Shown here piece after piece: positions 4,180 through 44,499 of a stretch of 44,499 nucleotides of DNA. The translations under genes were made by a program, and so were the position numbers. How positions within the stretch are numbered: position 1 is the first letter of the stretch; each line of letters opens with the position of its first letter. Origin of the DNA: a virus; the IMG/VR virus record IMGVR_UViG_3300005336_000029, positions 1-44,499 of that record; one strand, given 5' to 3'. Under the pieces are notes generated by a model. The model made no database searches. It was not told the origin of the DNA and saw nothing but the letters and a program-made list of their open reading frames with translations.

Positions 4180-5589
4180 ATGGCGGACGATCAGAAGTCC
4201 TTTATTTCATACACGCCCGGAGCCGCTGGCAAGGAGATCGAGGCGATTCTGCGCCCGCTGCAAGTATCCGATCAGGTTAAAGCACAGGCTTATGCTGACT
4301 ACTTCAACTCCAAAGACGAGCGGGACTTCACAACCCGGTTCAAGTCGCTAGAAGGGTTCCCAAACGAGATGAAAGCGCAGTTGTACGCGCACAAGTACGG
4401 GCAGCAGAAGCATCCGTCGAGTATGCTCACACCGGAGGGGATGGGGGAGATCGCGGTGGCTGAAATGCCAGCGATTGGCGCGACTGCTGGTGGCGCACTA
4501 GCTGGCCCACTAGGAGTTCCGGTAGGCGCGGCATTGGGTACAGCAGGACGGCAACTGATCCGGTCGCATAAAGGGCAGGAGGTGCCGACTACGGTAGGTG
4601 GATCGCTCGCGGAGATGGGCGTTGAAGCGGGTAAGCAGAGCGCGTATGAACTCGGCGGACGCGCGGTGAGCGCAGGGCTGCGGGGACTTCGAAGAATTGC
4701 TCCGCCTATGTATGAAAGCGCGATTCGTGGCGGGTTACCCGAACTGAAAAACCTAGAAGGTGGAGAGTTAGAACGCACTATCGCAGAGCAGCGAGAGATA
4801 ACTGAACGCGGCGTCAGAACACGCACGCCGGTGTCTGTTGAAGGTGCCAAGCAAGCGGGAATGCGCGTGGGTGAGACTAAACCAAAGGTGACAGCGGAGG
4901 TCAGCGCCGCGACTCAGGCGAATAAAACCATCAAGACCGCCGATATCCTGAAGCCGCTCGATGACCAGATCGCGTTGTGGTCCGCGCCCGATCCAGCAGA
5001 CGCGAAATCCCTCGTCAAGCAGCGCACGCGGATCATGAACGCGCTGGCATCCAAGGGGCAGGATCAGTGGATGACCCCGAACGAGGCGCAGGCGTTGAAG
5101 GAGCAACTGAGCAAGCAGCTCAGCAGCAAGGCGTTCCGTCAGGGCGCTCCCACCGCTGGGAAGATAGCAGGGAAGACCGCTCAGTATGGAGGATTCAAAG
5201 GGGCTATCGAGCAAGTCGCGCCAGGTGTAGAAGAGGCGAATCGCGCGATTCACCTGGACCTCGCGCTCAAGGACGCGATATTGCGCGCTGAGAAGAAACA
5301 TCCAGGCTGGATAAAGAACGCGCTCGGTACAATCGGCGGCGCTGTCACCTTGGAAGCGATTGGACACCGCGGTCTTGGTGAAGCGTGGGTGGTTGGTGGA
5401 CTGATACGCCAAGCCATGCAGGAACCGCGTGTGATGGGACGACTCGCGATCATGCTAGAGCAAGCGGGCGTTCAGCTCCCCAAATTCGCCGAACCTACAG
5501 TGAAATATGGACTCCGCTTCGGCCTGCCACTGACCGAAGACCTGCCTCCATCGAGGCTGAATAACCAGAACGATGGAGCTACGAAATAA
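4180..5589 (+). CDS. Putative internal virion/ejection protein with glycine-zipper segment
   Basis: 469 residues, starting four bases after the preceding stop. Residues about 90-125 contain an Ala/Gly-rich hydrophobic segment (AIGATAGGALAGPLG) of the glycine-zipper type found in membrane-inserting ejection proteins. The rest is mainly helical, with a Lys/Gln-rich region (about 250-330) and a basic amphipathic C-terminal third. No catalytic motif is visible. By order and composition it is the third member of the ejection-protein set. Its possible role is a conduit across the host envelope (inference). Confidence 0.6.
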   Translation: MADDQKSFISYTPGAAGKEIEAILRPLQVSDQVKAQAYADYFNSKDERDFTTRFKSLEGFPNEMKAQLYAHKYGQQKHPSSMLTPEGMGEIAVAEMPAIGATAGGALAGPLGVPVGAALGTAGRQLIRSHKGQEVPTTVGGSLAEMGVEAGKQSAYELGGRAVSAGLRGLRRIAPPMYESAIRGGLPELKNLEGGELERTIAEQREITERGVRTRTPVSVEGAKQAGMRVGETKPKVTAEVSAATQANKTIKTADILKPLDDQIALWSAPDPADAKSLVKQRTRIMNALASKGQDQWMTPNEAQALKEQLSKQLSSKAFRQGAPTAGKIAGKTAQYGGFKGAIEQVAPGVEEANRAIHLDLALKDAILRAEKKHPGWIKNALGTIGGAVTLEAIGHRGLGEAWVVGGLIRQAMQEPRVMGRLAIMLEQAGVQLPKFAEPTVKYGLRFGLPLTEDLPPSRLNNQNDGATK

Positions 5590-5603
5590 GCAAAGGAGCA
5601 CTA

Positions 5604-5936
5604 GTGGTGCCTTACCGTGTGCGTTCAGCTATTGGTCACACAATGTTAATAGTCAGATGGCCGGTTTTCTTCGGACTAATCGCCGCTTCTGTGCTACAAG
5701 TAATCGCAGCGTTTACCCCATCTCTGAAACCGGAGCAGGTGAACTTGCCTGACATCATCCCTCCGATAAATACTGCGGTGCTGGCTCTGCTGTGGTGGCG
5801 GATCACGCAGTTGGAAAAGACCAGTGAATACTTCCGCGATAAGATGGATCGGATGAGCAGCCATCAGGACATGCAGGATTATCGCTCAGGGCATCCTAGG
5901 CGCGCCAGGAGCCATATCGAAGCGGACGAGGACTGA
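5604..5936 (+). CDS. Small membrane protein, holin-like
   Basis: GTG start at 5604 (or GTG 5607) behind AAAGGAG. The 110-residue product has two hydrophobic helices (about residues 14-37 and 52-66, separated by a short Pro-containing loop) and a charged C-terminal tail ending in DED. This topology and size fit class II holins, but the gene lies far from the endolysin-like gene at 42931, and another pair of small membrane proteins lies there. It could instead be an ejection accessory. Confidence 0.55.
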   Translation: MVPYRVRSAIGHTMLIVRWPVFFGLIAASVLQVIAAFTPSLKPEQVNLPDIIPPINTAVLALLWWRITQLEKTSEYFRDKMDRMSSHQDMQDYRSGHPRRARSHIEADED

Positions 5937-5961
5937 GTTAGTGAATCAAAGGAGAGATCAG

Positions 5962-6264
5962 ATGAACATGGAAGTGACGATGCCGGGGACGCCGGTCATT
6001 GAGTTTGTGAATATCATCGGAGCGCTGGTGGGAGTCGAGGGACTGCCGCCCGGAGTCAGCCCGGTCGCGAATCCCACGATGTCCCCATTCGGCGGCTTCA
6101 CCGCTATTCCGGGAATGCATACACGCGCGGAGGACCTGGCGAATGCCATCAATTTCAACTGGCATATTATGTTCGGGGCAGGAGGTCCGCAGATCACAGC
6201 GGCGCAGGCTGCACAATATCTGCCGGGGAATCCGAGAGGGCCGGTGGTGCCGCATGGTGTGTAG
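5962..6264 (+). CDS. Hypothetical protein (100 aa), last gene of plus block
   Basis: ATG 5962 is preferred over the in-frame GTG at 5941, because AAAGGAG at 5948-5954 has ideal spacing only to 5962. The protein is Gly/Pro-rich with a hydrophobic IIGALVGVEGLPPG segment and an AQAAQYLPG motif. No family was recognised. Its stop lies one base from the stop of the convergent minus gene. No hairpin terminator was found at this junction. Confidence 0.6.
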   Translation: MNMEVTMPGTPVIEFVNIIGALVGVEGLPPGVSPVANPTMSPFGGFTAIPGMHTRAEDLANAINFNWHIMFGAGGPQITAAQAAQYLPGNPRGPVVPHGV

Positions 6265-6265
6265 C

Positions 6266-6481
6266 TCACGATTCTCGCAACGTGATTTCGTGGTCTAGAT
6301 ACCAGCGCGCTTTCTTCAGGTCTTCTATCGCGCAGGTGCTGTCTTTCTTGCCCGCGCGCGCGATGTACTTGATCGCATTTCCGAGCGAGAAGCCTAGCTG
6401 CCACGCATCAATGACTTTGATAGCCTCATAAGTCGTATCGCTGCCGTAATACGCTGGGTGATCTACGCGATCTTCTGGCAT
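6266..6481 (-). CDS. DUF3310-type protein
   Basis: 71 residues from ATG 6481, which has GGGAGA about eight bases upstream; longer in-frame starts lie inside the polymerase gene. The sequence matches the DUF3310 pattern seen in many phages: an N-terminal DHPAYYG, then EAIKVIDAWQLGF, GNAIKYIARAGKK and DLKKARWYLDHEI. The biochemical role of the family is not established; members often sit beside nucleotide metabolism or replication genes, as here. It overlaps the end of the polymerase gene by 19 bases. Confidence 0.85.
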   Translation of the reverse strand: MPEDRVDHPAYYGSDTTYEAIKVIDAWQLGFSLGNAIKYIARAGKKDSTCAIEDLKKARWYLDHEITLRES

Positions 6482-9360
6482 ATTTGTAACTTCTCCCGCT
6501 TCTGCATATTTCGACCGATTGAAACATCCACCGCGCACCATAGCCCATCCGGCGCGACGGGATTGACCAGCACGCGCGATGGCAGTTCCATTTGCGTCTT
6601 CACATTCACCGCACATTCCTCAGCCAATGAATCAAGGCAGCAGAACCAAAGCGCATCGTGGACCGTGTTGCACATGCCGTAGCGCTCCGCCCAGCCTTTC
6701 TCGTCGATAGCCAGCATGTTGTCCTTTAGATGACCATGACCCGCGTTCTGGACTAGCAGCGAGATCGCGGCTTCTGCATCCGTGCCGTGGCCGACCTTCC
6801 AGAATGTGTCCTTCGCATCTCCGCGATGAATGAACATCCGCTCGCCTGGAGAAGGGCGGTAGTTGTCCTTCACGGGCTTGTTGGAGAAAACGTCCCAGAA
6901 GCGGCGGATGTAGCCATGCGGGGTGACTAAATACTTCTGGTTATTTGCCTGCGTCAATATCGACCGCCGCCACGCCGCCGCGATGGGAAACGTATCGTCC
7001 AGCTTGCGGAGCACGTCATCAGCCTCGCGCCGGGAGCTGAACGATTCAGGGTTCTGGTCCCATAGCGTCTGGCCGCGCATTCCCAGTCCATAGCCGAGGA
7101 CAGCGGGCTTTGCCTGCCCATCCCGCACCACTGGATATTTAGTCTTCACCCACGCGAGATATTCCAGCAGCTCGTCATCCGGCTTGGCGAGCAGGTCATC
7201 GGACTTGGCAATGCGTAGCAGACCGACAGCAGCGAAGAACGAGTGGATGTCCAGTCGAGCGAGGCGCATGTAGCTCGCGTCCTGGGCGACGAAGCCGAGC
7301 GTGAGCGCATGAAAACTTTTGAAATCCGCTTCGATCAGCGTGTATCCCGCTGGAGCCTCAAGCATGGCGCGAAATCGAGCCGCGAGCGCAATAAGAGAAG
7401 CTGAGCCTGCCGCGCCGCGACTCTTCTCACTAGGTATGTTCTGTGCGTTTGGATCTGAACTAGAGAGCTGGCCAGTTGCCGGAGCGAATCCAAAGCTAGG
7501 GTGGACTCTGCCGTCCGCTGCGGGGGACCAGCCGTCAACGTAGGTGCCGCGCAGCTTCCCGAACTCCCGGTACTGGACAATCTTGCCGAAGATCGGGTCT
7601 CCAGTGCGCTTGCCGAGCGCGAGGATCTCTCGTTTATCGGTAGTGTCCTTCTGCTCTTTACGATTCCGGGGGATTTTGTATTTAGCGCGCTGCTCGGCTT
7701 TTTCGCGAACGTGGCCTTTCGCGACATAGGCGGCGATCTCCTGTTCCCGTTTGAATCGGATATAGGACATGAGTTGCTGGGACGAGTTGGGATTGAAGGG
7801 GAGCAACTCGCACCAGCGGTAGGTGGGCACGTCGATTAGTTTAAGCTGGTCCACGTCGCGGAACTCGCGTAGCACAAACTGCTTCCCGCTCGGCAGCGTG
7901 ACCGGATCGCATAGCCCACCATGAATAGGTGGCGGAGATTGAGCTAGCCAGCCGCGCAGATCAGGTGGAAGGCGCTTATACCCTTCTTTCGGGTGAATTG
8001 CGCGTACTTCCTCCGGCACTAGCGCCTGCGCCTCGTTCTCCATCAAGATCTTCTGCCCGTCCAGCCAGTGGCCGAACTCGATCCGCTCGGCGTCGTTGAC
8101 TGGGATGCCTCGCGCGGTCATGCGGTCTAGAATGGGACTGAGCCGTAGAATGTGACGTTCATACCCCTTCCAGATGCCCAACTTTCGCAAGTCAGCGGAC
8201 AACTTACAAAAAATCCTTTGGGGAGCATCCACGTCCCTTCCTCCGTAGAAATGAGGACGCGATAGATCCAGATGTTTCCAAGGTCCGATCTCTGGGCAAT
8301 AGAAAGAAGCCACATGCTGTAGTCCTTTCGGCAGGTCTGGTTGCGCGTGGTGCCAGCAATCCATCAGATCGTGGCAGTCACCGTTGATGGCCAGTTCGTA
8401 GCCCTTATCCCGCAGGAACCGTTTGGTGATCGGACGATCCGTCTTGCGCCCGTTGAAATCCAGTTTCGGATTCGGCAGCGCTAGAATCGCGCAGATCAGC
8501 TTGTGGAATGGTTCGGAGTCCTGCCAGTCCAGTATGGTTGCTTGTTTCGGTCGGAGGCTGAATTGAATCTGGTAAATATCGCTGAACTCCCGCACCACTG
8601 TCTCCGATTCGTCATCGCCCGCTTCGAGGGTGTCGCGGGTTTCGATGTCCCATGAAATCGGCAGGTCCGGGTGCGCGGCGGCGTCGTTATAGAAGTTCGC
8701 CAGGTCTGCTAACGACGCGTGCTCCAGGTATTCGGCAGCGGACTCCGGTTCGTAGGTCCACCCAGCGCGGCCAATCGCGACCGCCAGTTGAATATCCCGT
8801 ATCAGCACGCCCAGCAGATCCATCCCGCGCCCGGCAGCGCCTTCAATCCGCGCGCCGGATTCCTTGTCCTCGTCCTTCGCGCCGCGACGCAGGTAGGATG
8901 GGTGATAGCTGCCAACGCAGGGGATATCGTATTTGGATCGAATCGGGAAGCCGCGCGCGAGGAGAATCCCTTGTCTGTGGCCTGCCATGCCGGTCAGCTC
9001 CCGCATCGCTACACCACCCAGCGCGAGGAAGCAGCGGGGCTGGCGTTCGCGGAACAGGCGCTCGTTCATTGGACGGCAGGCTGCGATGGCATCATATTCC
9101 CACGGGGCGTTCTCCAACCAGTCGTTCGGGGGGCGATACCAGACTACGTTGCTGATTAAAAATGACTGGCGATCCACGCGCGCGAGTCTGAATGCGCGTT
9201 CGAGGACCGAGCCAGCCTCCGCGTAGGGACGAAAGGGGAGCCGGTCGATCTCCTCATTCCGCCCGAGCGCTTCCCCGACGACGCAGACGCCGTTCGCGCC
9301 GGAGCCTTCGGGGATCATCAGCGCGGGTTCGGGGCCGTCCGGGAAACCAGGTAATATCAC
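6463..9360 (-). CDS. Uracil-DNA glycosylase-DNA polymerase A fusion
   Basis: 965 residues. Residues 1-200 are a family-4-type uracil-DNA glycosylase domain: GEALGRNEEIDRLPF (29-43), NVVWYRPPN (71-79) and HPSYLR (153-158). A 3'-5' exonuclease domain follows, with Asp238/Glu240, Asn303...Asp308 and Tyr372...Asp376. Residues about 400-955 are a family A polymerase: Asp679 (motif A), Lys751 (motif B) and His901-Asp902 (motif C). An N-terminal glycosylase-like domain is known from the SPO1-type polymerase. Odd residues: TGQLSS (629-634) has Gln where Pol I has Arg; motif A reads DFKSFH with no Glu; the position equivalent to E. coli Phe762 is Leu755. The GTG start forms a GTGA overlap with the upstream gene. 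Confidence 0.92.
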   Translation of the reverse strand: MILPGFPDGPEPALMIPEGSGANGVCVVGEALGRNEEIDRLPFRPYAEAGSVLERAFRLARVDRQSFLISNVVWYRPPNDWLENAPWEYDAIAACRPMNERLFRERQPRCFLALGGVAMRELTGMAGHRQGILLARGFPIRSKYDIPCVGSYHPSYLRRGAKDEDKESGARIEGAAGRGMDLLGVLIRDIQLAVAIGRAGWTYEPESAAEYLEHASLADLANFYNDAAAHPDLPISWDIETRDTLEAGDDESETVVREFSDIYQIQFSLRPKQATILDWQDSEPFHKLICAILALPNPKLDFNGRKTDRPITKRFLRDKGYELAINGDCHDLMDCWHHAQPDLPKGLQHVASFYCPEIGPWKHLDLSRPHFYGGRDVDAPQRIFCKLSADLRKLGIWKGYERHILRLSPILDRMTARGIPVNDAERIEFGHWLDGQKILMENEAQALVPEEVRAIHPKEGYKRLPPDLRGWLAQSPPPIHGGLCDPVTLPSGKQFVLREFRDVDQLKLIDVPTYRWCELLPFNPNSSQQLMSYIRFKREQEIAAYVAKGHVREKAEQRAKYKIPRNRKEQKDTTDKREILALGKRTGDPIFGKIVQYREFGKLRGTYVDGWSPAADGRVHPSFGFAPATGQLSSSDPNAQNIPSEKSRGAAGSASLIALAARFRAMLEAPAGYTLIEADFKSFHALTLGFVAQDASYMRLARLDIHSFFAAVGLLRIAKSDDLLAKPDDELLEYLAWVKTKYPVVRDGQAKPAVLGYGLGMRGQTLWDQNPESFSSRREADDVLRKLDDTFPIAAAWRRSILTQANNQKYLVTPHGYIRRFWDVFSNKPVKDNYRPSPGERMFIHRGDAKDTFWKVGHGTDAEAAISLLVQNAGHGHLKDNMLAIDEKGWAERYGMCNTVHDALWFCCLDSLAEECAVNVKTQMELPSRVLVNPVAPDGLWCAVDVSIGRNMQKREKLQICQKIA

Positions 9361-9509
9361 TTACGCACCATTCTGTACATGGTGAACAGATTCCCTCCCG
9401 CCCGCACCAGCGCCGTCCTCAGACCGCTCAGGATCACATTCAATCCGAGACAGAGCAGGCAGAATGCCCACGGATGCTCCGCTATGGCCTCTAGGACTTG
9501 CCTGAACAT
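9357..9509 (-). CDS. Small membrane protein (50 aa)
   Basis: ATG 9509 has GGAG nine bases upstream. The 50-residue product has one hydrophobic helix (WAFCLLCLGLNVILSGL) and a basic C terminus ending MVRK. Its TGA overlaps the GTG start of the polymerase gene in a GTGA junction, which suggests translational coupling and confirms the polymerase start. It overlaps the preceding gene by 19 bases. Function unknown. Confidence 0.65.
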   Translation of the reverse strand: MFRQVLEAIAEHPWAFCLLCLGLNVILSGLRTALVRAGGNLFTMYRMVRK

Positions 9510-9757
9510 TCCGGCTCCATTGGTTTCACTCTATCAATCCTCTCCACCAACGTCTCCTCAGTTTTGTAAATCTCGCAAACCGCGCCGGGGGAGCAATGCT
9601 TCAACGTCTCGCGTGCCCACTTGCGGAGCGGCTCGATGGAGAAGGCGCGATCCGTCAGCGCCCCCGGAATCGTCAGCGTGCCATACCTATCCGGCTTCAA
9701 CTCTGGGCGGTTAGGATCGGTGATGAACGCGCGGTAGGTGGTTTTATTGATAGGCAT
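9491..9757 (-). CDS. Hypothetical protein (88 aa)
   Basis: Starts MPINKTTYRAFITD at ATG 9757, without a clear ribosome-binding site. It is a small mixed alpha/beta protein with a charged C terminus and two cysteines (about residues 55 and 61 or later). No family recognised. It lies between a MazG-like gene and a tiny membrane gene in the same transcription unit. Confidence 0.6.
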   Translation of the reverse strand: MPINKTTYRAFITDPNRPELKPDRYGTLTIPGALTDRAFSIEPLRKWARETLKHCSPGAVCEIYKTEETLVERIDRVKPMEPECSGKS

Positions 9758-9772
9758 AGATTGTTTCGCGCG

Positions 9773-9790
9773 TCATGCTTCCGGCTTTCC
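9773..9790. repeat. 18-bp direct repeat, copy 1
   Basis: TCATGCTTCCGGCTTTCC occurs here and again at 10120-10137. In both places it encodes the C-terminal GKPEA plus stop of a minus-strand gene, in the same frame. Confidence 0.7.
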
Positions 9791-10123
9791 ACTTTTCCAC
9801 GGTTCGGGTTGGTGATGGAGATATGGCCTGATGCGTTCTGGTTTCGATGCCGCACGCGCTGTGATCGCCAGCGGATTCAAATCCGCCTCCGCTTCCATCC
9901 GTCGAACGGCGTGACCCAGGTCTCCCAACTCCCGTTCTAGCGCTGAACGGTTCGTTTCTGGCAACTCATCCTCTGGCGTAATCGCCTTCGGATTAGTGCT
10001 TTCATAACCGTGCCTCAAAATCTTGGAAGCGGCCTGTATCACCTCGCCGCACTCTTCGACAAGGATCACTAACCGCTCTTGTTCGGCTTCTGATAAACCG
10101 TTGAAGTGCCGCGTTTGTCTCAT
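9773..10123 (-). CDS. MazG-like all-alpha NTP pyrophosphohydrolase
   Basis: 116 residues from ATG 10123, which overlaps the upstream stop in an ATGA junction; the longer frame upstream is not needed. LVEECGEVIQ (22-31) gives the first metal-binding EExxE helix, and ERELGDLGHAV gives the second ExxD helix, the signature of MazG/phosphoribosyl-ATP-type pyrophosphohydrolases. These hydrolyse nucleoside triphosphates to monophosphates and PPi. Beside a polymerase carrying a uracil-DNA glycosylase domain, it could act in nucleotide-pool cleaning (inference). The last residues, GKPEA, are shared with the upstream gene through an 18-base repeat. Confidence 0.8.
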   Translation of the reverse strand: MRQTRHFNGLSEAEQERLVILVEECGEVIQAASKILRHGYESTNPKAITPEDELPETNRSALERELGDLGHAVRRMEAEADLNPLAITARAASKPERIRPYLHHQPEPWKSGKPEA

Positions 10124-10137
10124 GCTTCCGGCTTTCC
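10120..10137. repeat. 18-bp direct repeat, copy 2
   Basis: Second exact copy of the repeat at 9773-9790, covering the end of the zinc-binding gene and its ATGA junction with the MazG-like gene. Confidence 0.7.
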
Positions 10138-10503
10138 CTCCGTGGCCTTCAGTTCGGCCAGCTCTTCGCGGAGTTGGGCGAGGCGGCGCTGCTCGGGCTG
10201 GGCGAGACATTCGTAATCCCATATCGACGCATGCTTGCCACAGTGAACGTACTCGCCTTTTACGGGCGTCAACGGTCTGCCTAACCGGCACCAATCGCAC
10301 CGCTCCTTCGCCAGCGCCTCGACCACATCAATCGCCTTCTCGTGAGCCTTGATGTCGGCGAATCGGGCGATACGGACGGGGCAGCCAGTGTGTGGTCGGA
10401 AAATCTGATCGCATTCTCCGCATAACAGCTTGTCTCTATCCCTCTTTGCTTTGGCAGAGTCGTGCCCCCATGCTCCCGCCCGCGCTGCGTCGAGAGTGGT
10501 CAT
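10120..10503 (-). CDS. Zinc-ribbon protein (127 aa)
   Basis: Starts at ATG 10503, overlapping the stop of the upstream gene (ATGA). It contains LLCGECDQIF (CxxC), HTGCP, then ERCDWCRLGRPLT (CxxC) and a later HCGKHASIWDYEC, enough ligands for two zinc sites. The C terminus is a charged helix. Such proteins may bind nucleic acid or protein partners; no named family was recognised. It is part of a run of small zinc-binding proteins. Confidence 0.7.
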   Translation of the reverse strand: MTTLDAARAGAWGHDSAKAKRDRDKLLCGECDQIFRPHTGCPVRIARFADIKAHEKAIDVVEALAKERCDWCRLGRPLTPVKGEYVHCGKHASIWDYECLAQPEQRRLAQLREELAELKATEGKPEA

Positions 10504-10676
10504 CGCTCCCTCGCCTCCTCACGATGGCAACTTAGACAAATACGTTTGTTTTTCCATAGATACCAATCACGTTTCAGTGAGCACCGTTCACATACCGGGA
10601 GTCCGCACCCGAAACAGAACTTATTCGTGGCCCCTTGGCAGCGGCTGTCTTCTGCCTGATTACAGGTTCTTGACAT
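10500..10676 (-). CDS. Small zinc-finger protein (58 aa)
   Basis: ATG 10676 has a strong GGAGGGGAAGG ribosome-binding site. The product has Cys at 5 and 13, CFGCG (21-25), CERC (29-32) and CLSCH (47-51), spacing typical of a cross-brace or double zinc ribbon. It ends in a basic/acidic helix. Its stop overlaps the next gene's ATG (ATGA) and its start overlaps the preceding gene's end by 17 bases. Function unknown. Confidence 0.7.
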   Translation of the reverse strand: MSRTCNQAEDSRCQGATNKFCFGCGLPVCERCSLKRDWYLWKNKRICLSCHREEARER

Positions 10677-11046
10677 CCTTCCCCTCCATCAGTTCGGCCA
10701 GCCGGGCGCGAAGACTATTGGCATGTTCTATAAATTCTGTCCGCCAAAATAAACCAGGCTGAGTAACGGACCAATCCATTTCCTCGATCCTCGCCTCCAG
10801 CGCGGACTGTTCGAGGGCGCGGGCAATTACCTTCTCGTCTTCCATTAGTCTTGTTCTGTTAATTTCGTTAACGGCCAACATGCGGAGTATCTCCCGCGCA
10901 CGTTCGGCGTACTTGTCGGTCGTTTGCTCCATGTCTCGCCTCGATTTATTGCCTTTTTTCCAGTCGGGCCACTTATCGACTCGTGCCGCTGTTTTCTCCA
11001 GCATGTCGAAATATTCCTTGCCCGTTTTTGGCTTGCTGTCTGTCAT
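10660..11046 (-). CDS. Hypothetical helical protein (128 aa)
   Basis: ATG 11046, not the upstream ATG 11055, because 11046 makes an ATGA overlap with the preceding stop. The protein is highly charged and mostly helical (ARVDKWPDWKKGNKS near the N terminus, then a Glu/Arg/Leu coiled-coil-like region). The C terminus carries a second helix, ANSLRARLAELMEG. No family or catalytic motif was recognised. Confidence 0.6.
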   Translation of the reverse strand: MTDSKPKTGKEYFDMLEKTAARVDKWPDWKKGNKSRRDMEQTTDKYAERAREILRMLAVNEINRTRLMEDEKVIARALEQSALEARIEEMDWSVTQPGLFWRTEFIEHANSLRARLAELMEGKDVKNL

Positions 11047-11210
11047 AGGCCACACGGAAATGGTTTACCGGACGCTTCTAGGAGATGCATGAGGTCATCC
11101 CTAATACGGCCACATCTTGGACAGACAAACTGCTTGTCCTCTTGGTCTATCTCGATAAGTTCACAGCCACAGTGTGGACATCCAGTGGCGTACTTGTCGG
11201 TGGGGGTCAT
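11043..11210 (-). CDS. Zinc-ribbon protein (55 aa)
   Basis: ATG 11210 overlaps the preceding stop (ATGA); the longer in-frame extension upstream is a shadow. Two CPxCG knuckles (CPHCGCE and CPRCG, about 15 residues apart) form a classical zinc ribbon of the rubredoxin/TFIIS type. A short acidic/helical C terminus follows. Many phages encode such small ribbons with unknown partners; a role as a transcription or host-takeover factor is possible but unproven. Confidence 0.7.
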   Translation of the reverse strand: MTPTDKYATGCPHCGCELIEIDQEDKQFVCPRCGRIRDDLMHLLEASGKPFPCGL

Positions 11211-11812
11211 CGCGCAGCCTCCTTCAGGAATTGTTCGGCCTCTTCTGCCCAGCCGTCCCAATTCTGATCCAGCGCCCGCTCGATCAACTTCCGCGCCGTG
11301 GCGAGTTTCTTCGCCCATTTCTGTCCAGCTTGTTCGTTCAGTTCTCCGATGTAGCCAAGTCCGGTTATAAATTCGGCACACCGCAATAGTGAAAGTTCTT
11401 TTGCCCTAAGCTGTGCGTCAGTCAGGGCGAGCTGCGCTTCAAGCTCCTTGATCCGCTCCCGCTGCTTGCCGAGCTTCTCTTCGGCGACGGGCAGCACGAT
11501 GGTCTCAAGCTCCTGGATGCGCTTGTACTCCCGCATGCCGCATGCCGTTATCTTCTCGCTGATCTGATCCAGCGCGTCCCGCTTGAAGTCGATCATGCAG
11601 GCGTTGCACTGCATCTCGCCGTCATCGCCATACTTGCCGACGCATGGGTGGGTTAGAAACAGCAATAGTCGCGCCTTGTGATCTTCCTCGGCCATCTTCA
11701 CCACGGCGGCGGCGATCTTCTGTATGACTGAGGTTTCGATTACCCATTTATCGCTGGCGACTTTAACCAGCACCTCTTTCGCCCGCTCTACGACCTCTGT
11801 GTAGTCGGTCAT
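11207..11812 (-). CDS. Coiled-coil hypothetical protein (201 aa)
   Basis: Joined to both neighbours by ATGA overlaps. The N-terminal half has a CNAC knuckle near residue 70 with another Cys nearby (LTHPCVGK), suggesting a metal site. Residues about 95-150 are a strong coiled coil (EELEKLGKQ-like heptads, then KELEAQLALTDAQLRAKEL). A helical C terminus follows. No known family. Confidence 0.6.
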   Translation of the reverse strand: MTDYTEVVERAKEVLVKVASDKWVIETSVIQKIAAAVVKMAEEDHKARLLLFLTHPCVGKYGDDGEMQCNACMIDFKRDALDQISEKITACGMREYKRIQELETIVLPVAEEKLGKQRERIKELEAQLALTDAQLRAKELSLLRCAEFITGLGYIGELNEQAGQKWAKKLATARKLIERALDQNWDGWAEEAEQFLKEAAR

Positions 11813-11949
11813 CGCTTCGGATTCTCCTTGCCGCAGTGATCGCAGAAGTCTGTCTCCAGATCACGCCCACAGTACGGGCAGTAGCCGAGGATCACGATTT
11901 TGCGCTTACGCTTCCTCTTGCGTTTTGGCTCAGCGCGGTCTCCGGGCAT
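11809..11949 (-). CDS. Basic zinc-ribbon protein (46 aa)
   Basis: The real start is ATG 11949, immediately overlapping the previous stop (TGATG) and preceded by AAAAGGAAG; the GTG at 12000 would run through the upstream zinc-finger gene. The sequence has a strongly basic block (KRKRKRKRK) followed by CPYCG and CDHCG knuckles. The basic tract suggests nucleic-acid binding (inference). The stop overlaps the next gene by ATGA. Confidence 0.65.
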   Translation of the reverse strand: MPGDRAEPKRKRKRKRKIVILGYCPYCGRDLETDFCDHCGKENPKR

Positions 11950-12062
11950 CAGCGGCTTCCTTTTACGTGCATTCTCCAGATATGCTTTACCACTTGCCAC
12001 CAGCTCTTAAAGACAAACAGATCAACGCCGCGTTCATCACACGTTCTACAATATCTGGTCAT
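11949..12062 (-). CDS. C2H2-like zinc-finger micro-protein (37 aa)
   Basis: ATG 12062 overlaps the preceding stop (ATGA), and its own TGA overlaps the next ATG (TGATG). The product has YCRTC near the N terminus and HIWRMH near the C terminus, spaced like a single C2H2 finger. C2H2 folds are rare in bacteria, so it could instead be a general metal site. The clean overlaps on both sides argue that it is a real gene. Confidence 0.6.
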   Translation of the reverse strand: MTRYCRTCDERGVDLFVFKSWWQVVKHIWRMHVKGSR

Positions 12063-12421
12063 CCCCGCTCCGCCTCCTCTGCGGCCTCGCGCAACGCCTG
12101 TGCCACAACCCAGCGTTGGCCGGGATTGTGCTCTATCTGGTCCGCCGCCCACCGCAGCGTCCGGGCCTTTGTGGCTCGCTCGGTGCGGCCTCGGACTTCG
12201 CGCAAGGTCTTATCAATTCTCGCGGAGCACCAGTCCCGATGCTCGGTCGCCACTCCCTTGTGATTCCGCAACGTGCCGCAGTGCTTACATCGGACGTGCC
12301 GCCAGTTGGAATCACGTAGGTCAACACCTCCGGTCGTATCTCCCCATTGGTGATCCCAATTCCCGCGAGATACTAGCCGCAACTCCTCGTCGCTCGGCAG
12401 TCCCGTTTTCGTATCAGGCAT
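12059..12421 (-). CDS. Zinc-binding hypothetical protein (120 aa)
   Basis: ATG 12421 lies inside the end of the PEP-CTERM gene (8-base overlap). It has CKHCG, then a His/Cys pair (HRDWC) about 20 residues later, giving a plausible zinc site, followed by Arg-rich helices and a C-terminal Ala/Glu helix. Trp-rich stretches precede the zinc site (NWDHQWGD). No family recognised. It heads the series of tiny zinc-binding genes. Confidence 0.65.
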   Translation of the reverse strand: MPDTKTGLPSDEELRLVSRGNWDHQWGDTTGGVDLRDSNWRHVRCKHCGTLRNHKGVATEHRDWCSARIDKTLREVRGRTERATKARTLRWAADQIEHNPGQRWVVAQALREAAEEAERG

Positions 12422-12938
12422 CCCGCCACCTCTTCAGCAACAGCAACGCAGCCAGCAGCATCCACCAACTAGCAGGCTCCGGCGCTTCAAACAGCTGCAC
12501 CTCCGCGATCTGCAACCGCCCATCCGCGAAGATAAACGTGCCCATGCCCTCACCGATCTGGCTGAACGGAGTACACACAGAATCCAGACAATACGCTCCA
12601 GTCAGCGTGGAATGAACACCGACGCCATAGGCGCTATGCGCCCCAGTCAAATCCGCTGTGATCTCAGCGGTCGCGGTGAATGACGGGTCAGGCTCCCCGA
12701 ATCCCAGCGTTTCGTATGGCCCGATGATATCTGAGACCTGCATCGGGAATGACGCGGACCAAGTGACCAAGCCACCAGGAGTCAGCTCGGGGCAAGGGCC
12801 AGCGGTGCCAACCAGCCCCAGGTCATCCACGACGAATTGACCAGTCACGGAGCCGAGCGTGCAGACCAGTTGAGCGAAGGTGGTGTCCGCGCGCAGACTG
12901 ATCGCGGTCAGTAACAAGATAATGAGTCTCATAACCAT
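12414..12938 (-). CDS. Secreted protein with PEP-CTERM sorting signal
   Basis: 174 residues from ATG 12938, which has GAGG seven bases upstream; ATG 12932, in an ATGA overlap with the helicase stop, is the alternative. The N terminus is a signal peptide (MVMRLIILLLTAISLRA, with cleavage probably near FAQ). The mature part is a beta-rich domain with paired cysteines. The C terminus has the three parts of a PEP-CTERM signal: Pro-Glu-Pro (153-155), a hydrophobic helix (SWWMLLAALLLL) and a basic end (KRWRDA). Exosortase would process this signal in the host envelope. It lies among early replication genes, so it is probably made early. Confidence 0.75.
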   Translation of the reverse strand: MVMRLIILLLTAISLRADTTFAQLVCTLGSVTGQFVVDDLGLVGTAGPCPELTPGGLVTWSASFPMQVSDIIGPYETLGFGEPDPSFTATAEITADLTGAHSAYGVGVHSTLTGAYCLDSVCTPFSQIGEGMGTFIFADGRLQIAEVQLFEAPEPASWWMLLAALLLLKRWRDA

Positions 12939-14227
12939 TTCGTTACCTCTGGGTTTAATTTGACCCGCCGCGCCAGCAACTCCGCTCCACCAACAATCCG
13001 CATTCCTTGGACAGTGCGGGCGCGAGAGAGCGCGACATAAGCCATTGATGGGGCACCGAAGAATCCGTCTCGACAATCCAACTGAACTCGGTCGAGCGAT
13101 AATCCCTGCGACTTATGAACCGTGGAGCAATAGCCGAGACGCATCGGAAACCAGTCCACGGTTCCAATCACATACTGCCCATCCTCCGCGATGTGCAGGA
13201 TCGGAGGATCGGACGGACCAGGCTCATCGCGCACCTTATTCTCCCGCACGATCCGCTCAATCCAGAACGTCTCCCCAGTGCGGACGCTGGTCACGCGCAC
13301 GGCCTCAGCCGCGTACTCCTCACCCTTCCAGTCGGTTAGGCAGGCGGAGTCGGAGTGCTCTACCACATGCGCCAGATCGCCGTTCACATACTGGAATCCG
13401 CAGCCCATCGGACCCTTCTTGTTCGCCAGCAGCATCACCAGCGCGCCCGGTTTCAGGATTATGCGATCTGGAATATTCTTCCACTCGCTGGATTGAACCC
13501 CGGAACGGACTGTCTGGAGCGCGAATGAAGGTGCTTTGATCTTCAGCAACCGCTGTGCATTAAACCGATCCGCCTCATCGTTCTTCGCGACGATGGTGGT
13601 GCCGTCGAAGTCCAGGTCCACGGCGATACTGAAGTTCGCGCCGAGCGAACGGAGGCCAGCGGCGGCGGTCGGTCCATCTCCGCGTCGGGCGGCGTTGATT
13701 GCGTCGAGGAAGGCGGGATCGCTCTGTCTCCAGATTTTAGTGAGCCTGTTGACATTCGCCGCGAACTCCGGCCAAGCGTCCGCCTGGAACGCCCAGCGCC
13801 CTTTCACTGGCGGGAGCTGGCAGAAATCGCCAGTCAGCGTCAGGCCCAGCGGATGCTCCAGCGGCTCCGCTGACTCGGTTCCGTAGTTAACCTCCTGAAT
13901 GGCTTTATAGATCGTGTCCAGTTGCTCCGCGTGCATCATCGAGACTTCATCAATCACGATATCCAGCGGTCGCGACGAGGACTTGGCTAGCTTGCGGAGC
14001 TTCTGATGCAGATAGCCCCGGACGTATTTGTCGATGAGCGATGACGTGTCGTAGTAGCCCAGGACGGAGTTGATCGTCACGGTGTCCAGGTTGACAGCGG
14101 CGACGCCGGTGGTCGCACAGAGGATCGCGCAGCCGGGGTCATCCTCGATCCGCTTCTTGATCGTGAATGTCTTGCCCGTGCCAGCCGCGCCGGTGAGGAA
14201 CTCTGTGCGGACACCATTGTTACTCAT
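12929..14227 (-). CDS. Pif1/RecD-like SF1B DNA helicase
   Basis: 432 residues. Walker A is GAAGTGKT (13-20), Walker B is IDEVSMM near residue 90, motif III is GDFCQLPPV, and the C-terminal motifs are STVHKSQGLSLDRV and AYVALSRAR. This is a compact 5'-3' helicase of the Pif1/RecD2/Dda type, likely used in phage DNA replication or recombination. The length is normal for a phage Dda/Pif1 protein and all core motifs are present. It overlaps the preceding small gene by eight bases and feeds the PEP-CTERM gene by an ATGA junction. Confidence 0.9.
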   Translation of the reverse strand: MSNNGVRTEFLTGAAGTGKTFTIKKRIEDDPGCAILCATTGVAAVNLDTVTINSVLGYYDTSSLIDKYVRGYLHQKLRKLAKSSSRPLDIVIDEVSMMHAEQLDTIYKAIQEVNYGTESAEPLEHPLGLTLTGDFCQLPPVKGRWAFQADAWPEFAANVNRLTKIWRQSDPAFLDAINAARRGDGPTAAAGLRSLGANFSIAVDLDFDGTTIVAKNDEADRFNAQRLLKIKAPSFALQTVRSGVQSSEWKNIPDRIILKPGALVMLLANKKGPMGCGFQYVNGDLAHVVEHSDSACLTDWKGEEYAAEAVRVTSVRTGETFWIERIVRENKVRDEPGPSDPPILHIAEDGQYVIGTVDWFPMRLGYCSTVHKSQGLSLDRVQLDCRDGFFGAPSMAYVALSRARTVQGMRIVGGAELLARRVKLNPEVTKWL

Positions 14228-41505: not shown

Positions 41506-41955
41506 ATGCTGTATAAACGCCAGTCCAGAGACCTTTTGATCCTCGTCATCATCGCGCTGTTCATCACCACGAACTGCGCGAAGCCTACCACCACCACTCC
41601 AGTAACTCCCGCGAACGTTCAGATGGCGCAGTTGTCCAAAACTATCGCGGACGCTGAGTCCACTGCCTCCAAAACCCTGATCGCGCTCCGCGAAAACGGC
41701 AAGATCACGCAGTCCGAGACGCAGGTGGTCCAGAACTATATCGTCGTGGCTGCGACTACAGGCAAATCAATGGACGCGGAGTTAGTCAGCGCGGATGACT
41801 GGCCTACACAAAAGTCCAAGATCATCCAGATGTGGGTTGCTACCGGGATCGGCCAAGCCAAATCTAGCTTGTCCCCTACCGCTGGGTTGGTTCTGGATAG
41901 CATCCTCAGCGCGGTCAATCAGATCATGACCGCTATCGGAGGTCCGACAATATGA
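41506..41955 (+). CDS. Secreted or lipoprotein-like protein, lysis cassette
   Basis: 149 residues, ATG 41506 behind AGGAGG. Basic N terminus then a hydrophobic helix (DLLILVIIALFITTNCAK) with a Cys that could be a lipidation site, although the lipobox is atypical. A Thr/Pro linker and helical domain follow. Could be a spanin-type or other envelope protein. Its stop overlaps the next gene by ATGA. Confidence 0.5.
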   Translation: MLYKRQSRDLLILVIIALFITTNCAKPTTTTPVTPANVQMAQLSKTIADAESTASKTLIALRENGKITQSETQVVQNYIVVAATTGKSMDAELVSADDWPTQKSKIIQMWVATGIGQAKSSLSPTAGLVLDSILSAVNQIMTAIGGPTI

Positions 41956-42769: not shown

Positions 42770-42931
42770 ATGAAGCGGGTTAAAAAGGGGCGCAGTAAAA
42801 TTAGAGCGACCATGCATGAGTTCAAGGAGGGCACGCTGCATAGCGGGTCCAAGCGTGGGCCGAAGGTGCGGAACCGCAAGCAGGCCGTTGCGATCGCGCT
42901 CAGCCAGGCGCGAAAGGGCAAGCGCCGCTGA
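42770..42931 (+). CDS. DUF6496-type basic protein (53 aa)
   Basis: ATG 42770 after AGGTGA. Sequence has MHEFKEGTLHSGSKRGPKV and NRKQAVAIALSQARKGKRR, the pattern of the DUF6496 family of small basic proteins common in phages and plasmids. Role unknown, DNA binding is likely. The stop overlaps the next ATG (TGATG). Confidence 0.75.
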   Translation: MKRVKKGRSKIRATMHEFKEGTLHSGSKRGPKVRNRKQAVAIALSQARKGKRR

Positions 42932-43356
42932 TGTCCTCCGCGCTCGGTGACTTCTATCCCTATCTCCTGGCCGCGCTCTGTGTGTGGCGAGAAGCGCGGG
43001 GGGAGTCCCAAGATGCGCGGCGTGGGGTGTGGTGGGTGATCCAGAACCGCGTAGGTCAGCCGATGTTCCGTCCGTCATTAACTCGCGTGGTCCTCCAGCC
43101 CTACCAGTTCTCCTCCTTCAACGCGGGCGATCCGAACGCGACGAAGTTCCCGAACGAAGCCATCCCACTCGACTGGCAGGCTTGGCTGGAGATCCTGGCC
43201 ATCGCGGAGTCACCAGACACAGACCCAACATACGGTGCGTTCTATTACGAGTCCTTCCCGGTCGAGGAGCTAGACGCAATCCGTGGCAAGGATTCCTGGT
43301 TCGCCGCAGACAAGCTAACCGTGCAGCTCGGCGCGGTCAGATTCTACAGAATGTGA
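42931..43356 (+). CDS. SleB-like cell wall hydrolase (endolysin candidate)
   Basis: 141 residues. VWREARGES (with the likely catalytic Glu21), VWWVIQNRVG and YQFSSFNAGDPN match the cell wall hydrolase (SleB/Hydrolase_2) domain that cleaves peptidoglycan. Full length for the domain; no signal peptide, so it would need the holins. It lies at the end of the lysis group. Confidence 0.8.
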   Translation: MSSALGDFYPYLLAALCVWREARGESQDARRGVWWVIQNRVGQPMFRPSLTRVVLQPYQFSSFNAGDPNATKFPNEAIPLDWQAWLEILAIAESPDTDPTYGAFYYESFPVEELDAIRGKDSWFAADKLTVQLGAVRFYRM

Positions 43357-43365
43357 GGATTTAAT

Positions 43366-43695
43366 ATGGCATCACGCTCTACTCGATCCACTCAATACTT
43401 CGGCATCCAGATCACCCTGTCCGCCGCGACGCCGCAACAACTCCTCGCGCTGCTCCAAGCAGTGGACCCGAATATCAGCGGCAGCGTGCGCCAGCTATCC
43501 ATCCAGAACGACTCCACCAGCCCCGCTGTCGTCCTGGTCGGTGACGCCGCGATATCCACCAGTCGCTACGGCTACCAGCTCAACGTAGGCTCCAGCAAGA
43601 CCTATCAGGGCACGGATACTCAAGCTGTTCCGCTGGGCGCGATCTTCTTCTATTCCACCGGCGCGGCGATTTTGAACGTGGAGGGTTATGCCTAG
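43366..43695 (+). CDS. Beta-rich structural protein candidate (109 aa)
   Basis: ATG 43366. Beta-rich, Ser/Thr/Gly-containing (IQITLSAATPQQLLALLQAV; SIQNDSTSPAVVLVGDAAIS). Located before a secreted protein, overlapping its start by eight bases. Function unclear; a virion protein is likely. Confidence 0.5.
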   Translation: MASRSTRSTQYFGIQITLSAATPQQLLALLQAVDPNISGSVRQLSIQNDSTSPAVVLVGDAAISTSRYGYQLNVGSSKTYQGTDTQAVPLGAIFFYSTGAAILNVEGYA

Positions 43696-44499
43696 ACTAC
43701 TCGCGCTCCTCACCTTCCTGCTCCTGCTTATCTCGCTCGTGATGCCCGCGCAGGCGCAGATCGAGAATCCGTCCGTGATCTATGTATCCGTTGACCCAAG
43801 CGGCGCTTGCGGGAACGGCATCATGCAGTATAACTACACGACCGGGAACTTCTGGGGCTGCGAGAATCGTGTCTGGACGCTTGTGACCGGCTCCAGTGGC
43901 GGTGGAGGAGGAGGGGGAGGTGGCGGGCTACCCCCCGGTGCGCCTGCGAATCAGATCCTCAGCGGTTGCGGCGTCGAATATACCAGCGGCCTGAGCTTCA
44001 CAGTCGGCCAATGCACCTACGCCATCGGTGGTCAGACCTACACCAGCCCGATTGTCACGCTCACACTCAGTGCTGCTGATCCTACCAATCCCCGGATCGA
44101 CGCAATTATCGTGGACATAACCAGCGCCGCTTCGGTCCTGACAGGCACGCCTGCCGCAACGCCCGCGCAACCGACCATCGACCCCTCTACCCAGCTCCTC
44201 CTGACCTTCGCTCTGGTCGCCGCAAATGCTACCACGCCGTCCAACATCACCACCGATTCGATCTATGACGAGAACACGGAATGGACCTGCACCGCGAGCG
44301 CACATTTCAACTGCGCTTCCACAAACAACCCCTATCACGGAACGAAGGATATCGAGTTCACCTCTGCCGTCCTGAACAACAACGTGACATTGGTGAAGCC
44401 CGCTGCCGGGACGGTGGACCTAGCGACCCGGAATACTCTAATCTTCTACCTCCGCTCCAAGGCAGTGTGGCCGACCGGTGCGTCCGGCGCGACCGCCGC
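43688..44499 (+). CDS. Secreted protein, 3' end outside window
   Basis: Starts at ATG 43688 and is open to the window end (270 full codons). N-terminal signal peptide (RLLALLTFLLLLISLVMPA, then QAQ), a beta-type domain, a long glycine linker (about residues 72-82) and further beta strands with a second glycine-free domain. Probably a tail fibre, spike or adhesin-like gene. If the genome is circular it would lead towards the gene at 1-795, but joining the two ends directly is out of frame. Confidence 0.7.
   Translation, partial: MPRLLALLTFLLLLISLVMPAQAQIENPSVIYVSVDPSGACGNGIMQYNYTTGNFWGCENRVWTLVTGSSGGGGGGGGGGLPPGAPANQILSGCGVEYTSGLSFTVGQCTYAIGGQTYTSPIVTLTLSAADPTNPRIDAIIVDITSAASVLTGTPAATPAQPTIDPSTQLLLTFALVAANATTPSNITTDSIYDENTEWTCTASAHFNCASTNNPYHGTKDIEFTSAVLNNNVTLVKPAAGTVDLATRNTLIFYLRSKAVWPTGASGATA

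Follow-up and report, generated by a model that had tools for sequence, protein, structure and literature searches.

The PEP-CTERM-like gene and its operon

The window (the whole 44,499-nt stretch that was analyzed, IMG/VR record IMGVR_UViG_3300005336_000029) carries a genuine gene for a PEP-CTERM-like protein, which runs on the minus strand from 12932 (or 12938) to 12414 and is wedged between a Pif1/RecD-like helicase gene and a 120-aa open reading frame (ORF) that has no Pfam match (Table 1). The full frame from 12938 to 12414 comprises 174 codons without an internal stop, and its translation runs from MVMRLIILLLTAISLRADTTFAQ to EAPEPASWWMLLAALLLLKRWRDA, followed by the stop codon. Two starts are available: the ATG at 12932-12930, which meets the helicase stop at 12929 in an ATGA overlap and yields 172 aa, and the in-frame ATG at 12938, which yields 174 aa; the product has the N terminus MRLIILLLTAISLRADTTFAQ and the C terminus EAPEPASWWMLLAALLLLKRWRDA. 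When all six frames over 12414-12938 are compared, this one is set apart both by its freedom from stops and by its codon score, although that score (0.067) is lower than those of core phage genes (0.17 to 0.34; third-position GC, 0.69 versus 0.72). The first-pass annotation had placed an ORF at 12414-12938; the ORF holds, and we add its strand, which had not been given, and the alternative start at 12932.

The gene lies within a DNA-metabolism block that also encodes an exonuclease-like protein, a weakly matching Sak4-like protein, a MazG-like NTP pyrophosphohydrolase, and a fusion of uracil-DNA glycosylase to DNA polymerase A (UDG-PolA), homologues of which, of like length, occur in two related phages (L004 and L005). 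The operon is probably expressed early. The terminase, portal, and endolysin genes are at least about 17 kb away.

Table 1. Coordinates of features in the window (no prefix) and in other viral records (prefixed)
Feature	Position	Strand	Basis or remark
PEP-CTERM-like exported-protein gene	12414..12932	-	ORF; ATGA overlap with helicase; sole stop-free frame of six; best codon score
Pif1/RecD-like helicase gene, immediately upstream, overlapping the start	12929..14227	-	PF05970 3.3e-13, PF13604 5.8e-12
120-aa ORF, downstream, overlapping the stop	12059..12421	-	ORF list
Signal-peptide-like N terminus (MRLIILLLTAISLRA-D)	12884..12932	-	Sequence inspection and crude hydrophobicity rule
Mature strand-rich domain, ~135 aa, four Cys	12486..12887	-	Composition; low-confidence model
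PEP-CTERM-like tail: PEP, 13-aa hydrophobic stretch, KRWRDA end	12417..12485	-	TIGR02595, PF07589, tail ranking
UDG-PolA fusion (family A DNA polymerase)	6463..9360	-	PF03167, then PF00476
149-aa ORF, possibly a spanin	41506..41955	+	N-terminal hydrophobic stretch ending NCAKP (lipoprotein-like)
Endolysin	42931..43356		
Large post-endolysin protein	43688..44499	+	Signal-peptide-like N terminus
Glycosyltransferase-sulfotransferase fusion	L004:1092-2468	+	Between helicase and UDG-PolA genes
Glycosyltransferase-sulfotransferase fusion	L005:11493-12941	+	Between helicase and UDG-PolA genes
231-aa signal-peptide protein with APEPS-helix-basic end	L009:901-1596		TIGR02595 14.5 bits, below cut-off
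Family A PEP-CTERM protein	L222:4608-5234	+	Conserved, strong tail
Family A PEP-CTERM protein	L206:12221-12862	-	Conserved, strong tail
Family A PEP-CTERM protein	L202:2821-3498	-	Conserved, strong tail
Family A PEP-CTERM protein	L185:2988-3623	+	Conserved, strong tail
Terminase matches spanning in-frame TGA codons (one or two)	G053:C1:60734-62206; G040:C1:8853-10196; G045:C1:16776-18197		

Architecture of the protein

All of the elements that had been noticed initially are present: a signal-peptide-like N terminus, four cysteines, a strand-rich middle, and a terminus formed by a PEP motif, a helix, and a basic end. By inspection and the crude rule, the signal peptide is the only membrane span ahead of the tail; inspection also allows cleavage after TTFA instead. 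At the extreme C terminus, PEP, helix, and basic cluster follow one another in that order (residues 152-172/174). A single-sequence structure model is of low confidence (pLDDT 62) and has a strand-rich middle, with the C-terminal helix (residues 158-173) modeled confidently (pLDDT about 90). Foldseek with this model returned nothing significant, and the sequence has no match in the PDB.

PEP-CTERM proteins have been characterized as low in basic residues, raised in Thr, Ser, and Asn, and very low in Cys, typically 0.4% (Haft 2006, PMC1569441). The mature part of the phage protein agrees with this profile in its K (0%), R (0.7%), and T (11.9%) contents and disagrees in S (6.7%), N (0%), and C (3.0%).

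The tail is borderline, a marginal PEP-CTERM whose scores straddle the TIGR02595 cut-off. The first-pass annotation had staked its reading on a PEP-CTERM profile match, and the outcome is divided: against a TIGR02595 cut-off of 16 bits, the whole protein scores 15.5 bits and the six-frame search of the record 17.0 bits (E 8.7e-4), and PF07589 gives 16.6 bits (E 0.0082), below its gathering score of 20.7. The six-frame match is the only one in the record at E<=1 and coincides exactly with the end of the signal-peptide-bearing ORF. The Pfam model of the time recovered just 22% of TIGR02595 members (Haft 2006, PMC1569441). An independent profile, built from 53 PEP tails of other phages and run on 3,852 ORF C-termini from this phage, its relatives, and the isolate phage Tunturi 1, ranks the tail first at 14.8 bits; none of 77,040 shuffled tails scored as high, the best reaching 13.6 bits. 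PEP and the first basic residue lie 13 aa apart, versus 15 to 16 aa in the tails surveyed below. Conservation of the tail cannot be shown because no homologue was found. As an alternative assignment, MYXO-CTERM (TIGR03901) was rejected (14.8 bits against a cut-off of 20, and a tail without Cys).

The phage and its probable host

Over its whole length, the window matches part of a 59.8-kb IMG/VR contig at 99.996% identity, and the PEP-CTERM-like gene is undamaged in both assemblies. Besides terminase, portal, and endolysin, the phage genes include a DNA methyltransferase and a capsid, the latter called from the longer contig. The host of this tailed soil phage is probably a member of the Acidobacteriota, because, among isolate phages, a related portal (31%) and capsid (30%) occur only in Tunturi 1 and 2, which infect Tunturiibacter of that phylum (PMC11924767). 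Capsid alignment against genome contigs yielded no prophage or MAG that would name a host, and neither Tunturi 1, the nearest isolate, nor a Granulicella plasmid has a PEP-CTERM match.

Elsewhere in the genome, several large proteins encoded after the endolysin, at the end of the window and in the tail region (5100-11828) of IMGVR_UViG_3300025912_000018, are probably tail proteins and have N termini resembling signal peptides (e.g., MPRLLALLTFLLLLISLVMPAQAQ), a feature unusual for proteins of this kind. The candidate spanin lies ~1 kb before the endolysin.

Distribution and the position behind the helicase

Homologues of the phage protein number zero in 50,697 phage records; none were found in viral contigs beyond the same phage or among genome contigs, and the protein belongs to no PHROG family. 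It is likewise absent from the other viral records reached via capsid or helicase, the protein search having covered 14 records, one of which is the same phage; nor do those other records have a TIGR02595 match over the cut-off. The first-pass annotation had called for related phage genomes to be surveyed and had read the gene as part of an early replication operon; because none of the relatives found has the gene and its slot is otherwise filled, it is accessory cargo and not a conserved early function. What stands of that reading is a PEP-CTERM-like protein that is encoded by the phage within a DNA-metabolism operon and, by sequence, secreted.

The relatives retain the helicase with different genes behind it. 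Two carry a glycosyltransferase-sulfotransferase (PF17784 at 1e-36), in one case with a 73-aa ORF between; another encodes an FN3-like protein with a signal peptide and the same ATGA overlap; yet another has a different signal-peptide protein; and most others have non-exported proteins. The slot is thus a variable cargo position that is at times occupied by envelope genes. A dedicated "envelope cargo slot" was also considered and was weakened by the wider look, in which exported or surface-modifying genes occur in only some relatives.

PEP-CTERM tails in other viral contigs

A codon pattern for VPEP[S/A][S/T]-x14-RRR, run over viral contigs, matched 74 stretches in frame, and 66 of 77 matches have genuine PEP-CTERM ends, mostly on signal-peptide proteins. 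Two scans shifted by one base served as negative controls. An off-frame control with identical specified letters matched 20 stretches; the first off-frame scan yielded no genuine tail in 80 fetched matches, the one match that passed the crude filter lacking both a signal peptide and a basic end. Every one of the 39 surveyed records longer than 20 kb exceeds the curated TIGR02595 cut-off, 13 of them with two matches, and 13 of the 39 carry a terminase of one family.

BLAST clustering joins 51 of the surveyed proteins into one set, inside which two families, A and B, are visible. Family A bears the signature ITFGQ...YLSGTF...SGN.SA-VPEP...RRR; its members are ~50% identical, with dN < dS in pairs with estimable dS, and two examples (L222 and L206) have strong PEP-CTERM scores of 24.7 and 25.8 bits. 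Some records (L185 and L167) hold PEP-CTERM genes in tandem pairs. The neighbors of both families are phage genes (portal, terminase, primase-helicase, RecT, UvsX, exonuclease, HNH, and methyltransferases), and on other phage contigs PEP-CTERM genes often adjoin replication or recombination genes. Neither family was found in isolate phages, nor family A in plasmids. Structure searches with the family A model, itself of moderate confidence (pLDDT 77), gave no significant match to PDB or viral folds. Membership of the phage protein in either family was rejected: the mature domains are unrelated (hhalign probability 0.8% for A and 0.1% for B), and there is no BLAST link.

Phage-borne proteins with predicted PEP-CTERM tails thus recur, given 66 survey tails against none in the off-frame control, most of them from the two families set among phage genes. 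They seem to have gone undescribed so far: no paper on phage-encoded PEP-CTERM proteins was found among the openly licensed literature, in agreement with the initial remark that such examples are little described.

As a separate observation, in three viral records that carry PEP-CTERM the terminase match continues across one or two TGA codons in frame, which could reflect recoding or alignment across a stop.

A working model and its alternatives

Judged by its architecture, by the accepted scheme for how PEP-CTERM proteins are processed (PMC1569441), and by work on the exosortase-dependent exoproteome (PMC12188702), the phage protein would most likely be directed to Sec export by its signal peptide, after whose cleavage the C-terminal helix would anchor it to the inner membrane, leaving the PEP motif on the periplasmic side. 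Removal of the tail by a host exosortase would follow, and the protein would pass to the cell surface or exopolysaccharide. Expressed with the (probably early) DNA-metabolism genes, it would alter the envelope of the infected cell while the phage replicates. Its position and type suggest that it could mask receptors or polysaccharide against further phages, in line with the superinfection exclusion or surface change first proposed.

We put at roughly even odds (about 0.5) the reading that this is an accessory cargo gene of a tailed soil phage whose exported product is sorted by the host exosortase and modifies the envelope of the infected cell. In its favor are the gene itself, the architecture, the borderline profile match, the operon position, the accessory distribution, the low basic and raised Thr contents, the surface-modifying or signal-peptide genes that some relatives carry behind the helicase, and the recurrence of PEP-CTERM in other phages; against it count scores that straddle the cut-off, the short 13-aa span, the high Cys content, the lack of a homologue, a variable slot occupied mostly by non-exported genes, and the missing match in Tunturi 1.

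The main rival, an unlikely one in our estimate, is a plain tail anchor, that is, a periplasm-facing inner-membrane protein in which PEP is incidental and exosortase takes no part. The same short span, sub-threshold Pfam score, and Cys content suit it, as does the lack of an exosortase gene or host to tie to the protein; yet no shuffled tail equaled the score of the phage tail, PEP, helix, and basic cluster stand in the correct order at the very end of a protein that also has a signal peptide, and clear PEP-CTERM tails occur in many other phages. Less probable still is a host gene acquired by chance and carried as a transient passenger with no gain for the phage. Its confinement to this phage population and a codon fit below that of core genes are what such a passenger would display, but both neighbors overlap the gene tightly, it is intact in two nearly identical assemblies, and dN < dS holds in other phage PEP-CTERM families.

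A decoy substrate, occupying the host exosortase and so impairing the sorting of surface proteins or exopolysaccharide during infection, would explain why so small and highly divergent a protein has an exosortase-type tail and otherwise has only logic to commend it; so divergent a tail would compete weakly, and nothing points to high expression, which makes this very improbable. We give equally little credence to a membrane-anchored part of the virion or lysis machinery: other signal-peptide proteins of the phage do lie in the tail region, but this gene belongs to the DNA-metabolism block, far from terminase, portal, and endolysin.

Set beside the survey, exosortase sorting of the accessory protein may be one case of a wider reuse of the host PEP-CTERM sorting pathway by phages. 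More tentatively, and with the balance somewhat against us, we suggest that PEP-CTERM proteins (at least two conserved families plus a divergent singleton) are repeatedly gained by tailed phages whose environmental hosts bear exosortase, which would place these proteins on the surface or exopolysaccharide of infected cells as exclusion or envelope-modifying factors. In environmental Gram-negative bacteria, the PEP-CTERM/exosortase system is a major yet poorly understood means of sorting proteins to the surface, and phages that supply their own substrates would offer a handle on what it does for the cell surface. If true, this would point to phage envelope factors of a kind absent from the literature searched and would aid in narrowing the hosts of uncultivated soil phages. 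Borderline as the present protein is, family A provides clear examples suited to bench work.

Comparison with known systems

Small accessory genes whose products are exported or act on the envelope include those for T5 Llp, T4 Imm and Sp, and GtrB-like O-antigen conversion; we liken the phage protein to these by kind only and claim no sequence relation. To our knowledge, no superinfection-exclusion or envelope-conversion gene uses a PEP-CTERM tail.

Among phage proteins, those of family A are likewise phage-borne, predicted to be exported, strand-rich, equipped with a PEP-CTERM tail, and encoded near DNA-metabolism or packaging genes; they differ in their 24.7- and 25.8-bit scores and in a mature domain that is unrelated by profile comparison. 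The 231-aa protein of IMGVR_UViG_3300014166_000003 (L009), a contig that shares the helicase (56% identical over the 128 residues present there), resembles the phage protein in its signal peptide, Cys-containing domain, and terminus, but its mature domain is unrelated, it is encoded elsewhere in its genome (about 23.5 kb), and its tail scores below the cut-off.

With exosortase (EpsH) PEP-CTERM proteins, the phage protein shares a signal peptide, low basic and high Thr contents, the PEP-helix-basic terminus, and a lack of homologues outside the tail that is typical of the group (PMC1569441). It departs from TIGR02595/PF07589 proteins in being phage-encoded, in scoring at the cut-off, in its shorter helix, and in having four cysteines in a Cys-poor family. 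Taken alone, it belongs marginally to a known kind of protein and stands out for its unusual carrier; of greater interest is that clear PEP-CTERM genes recur in phages.
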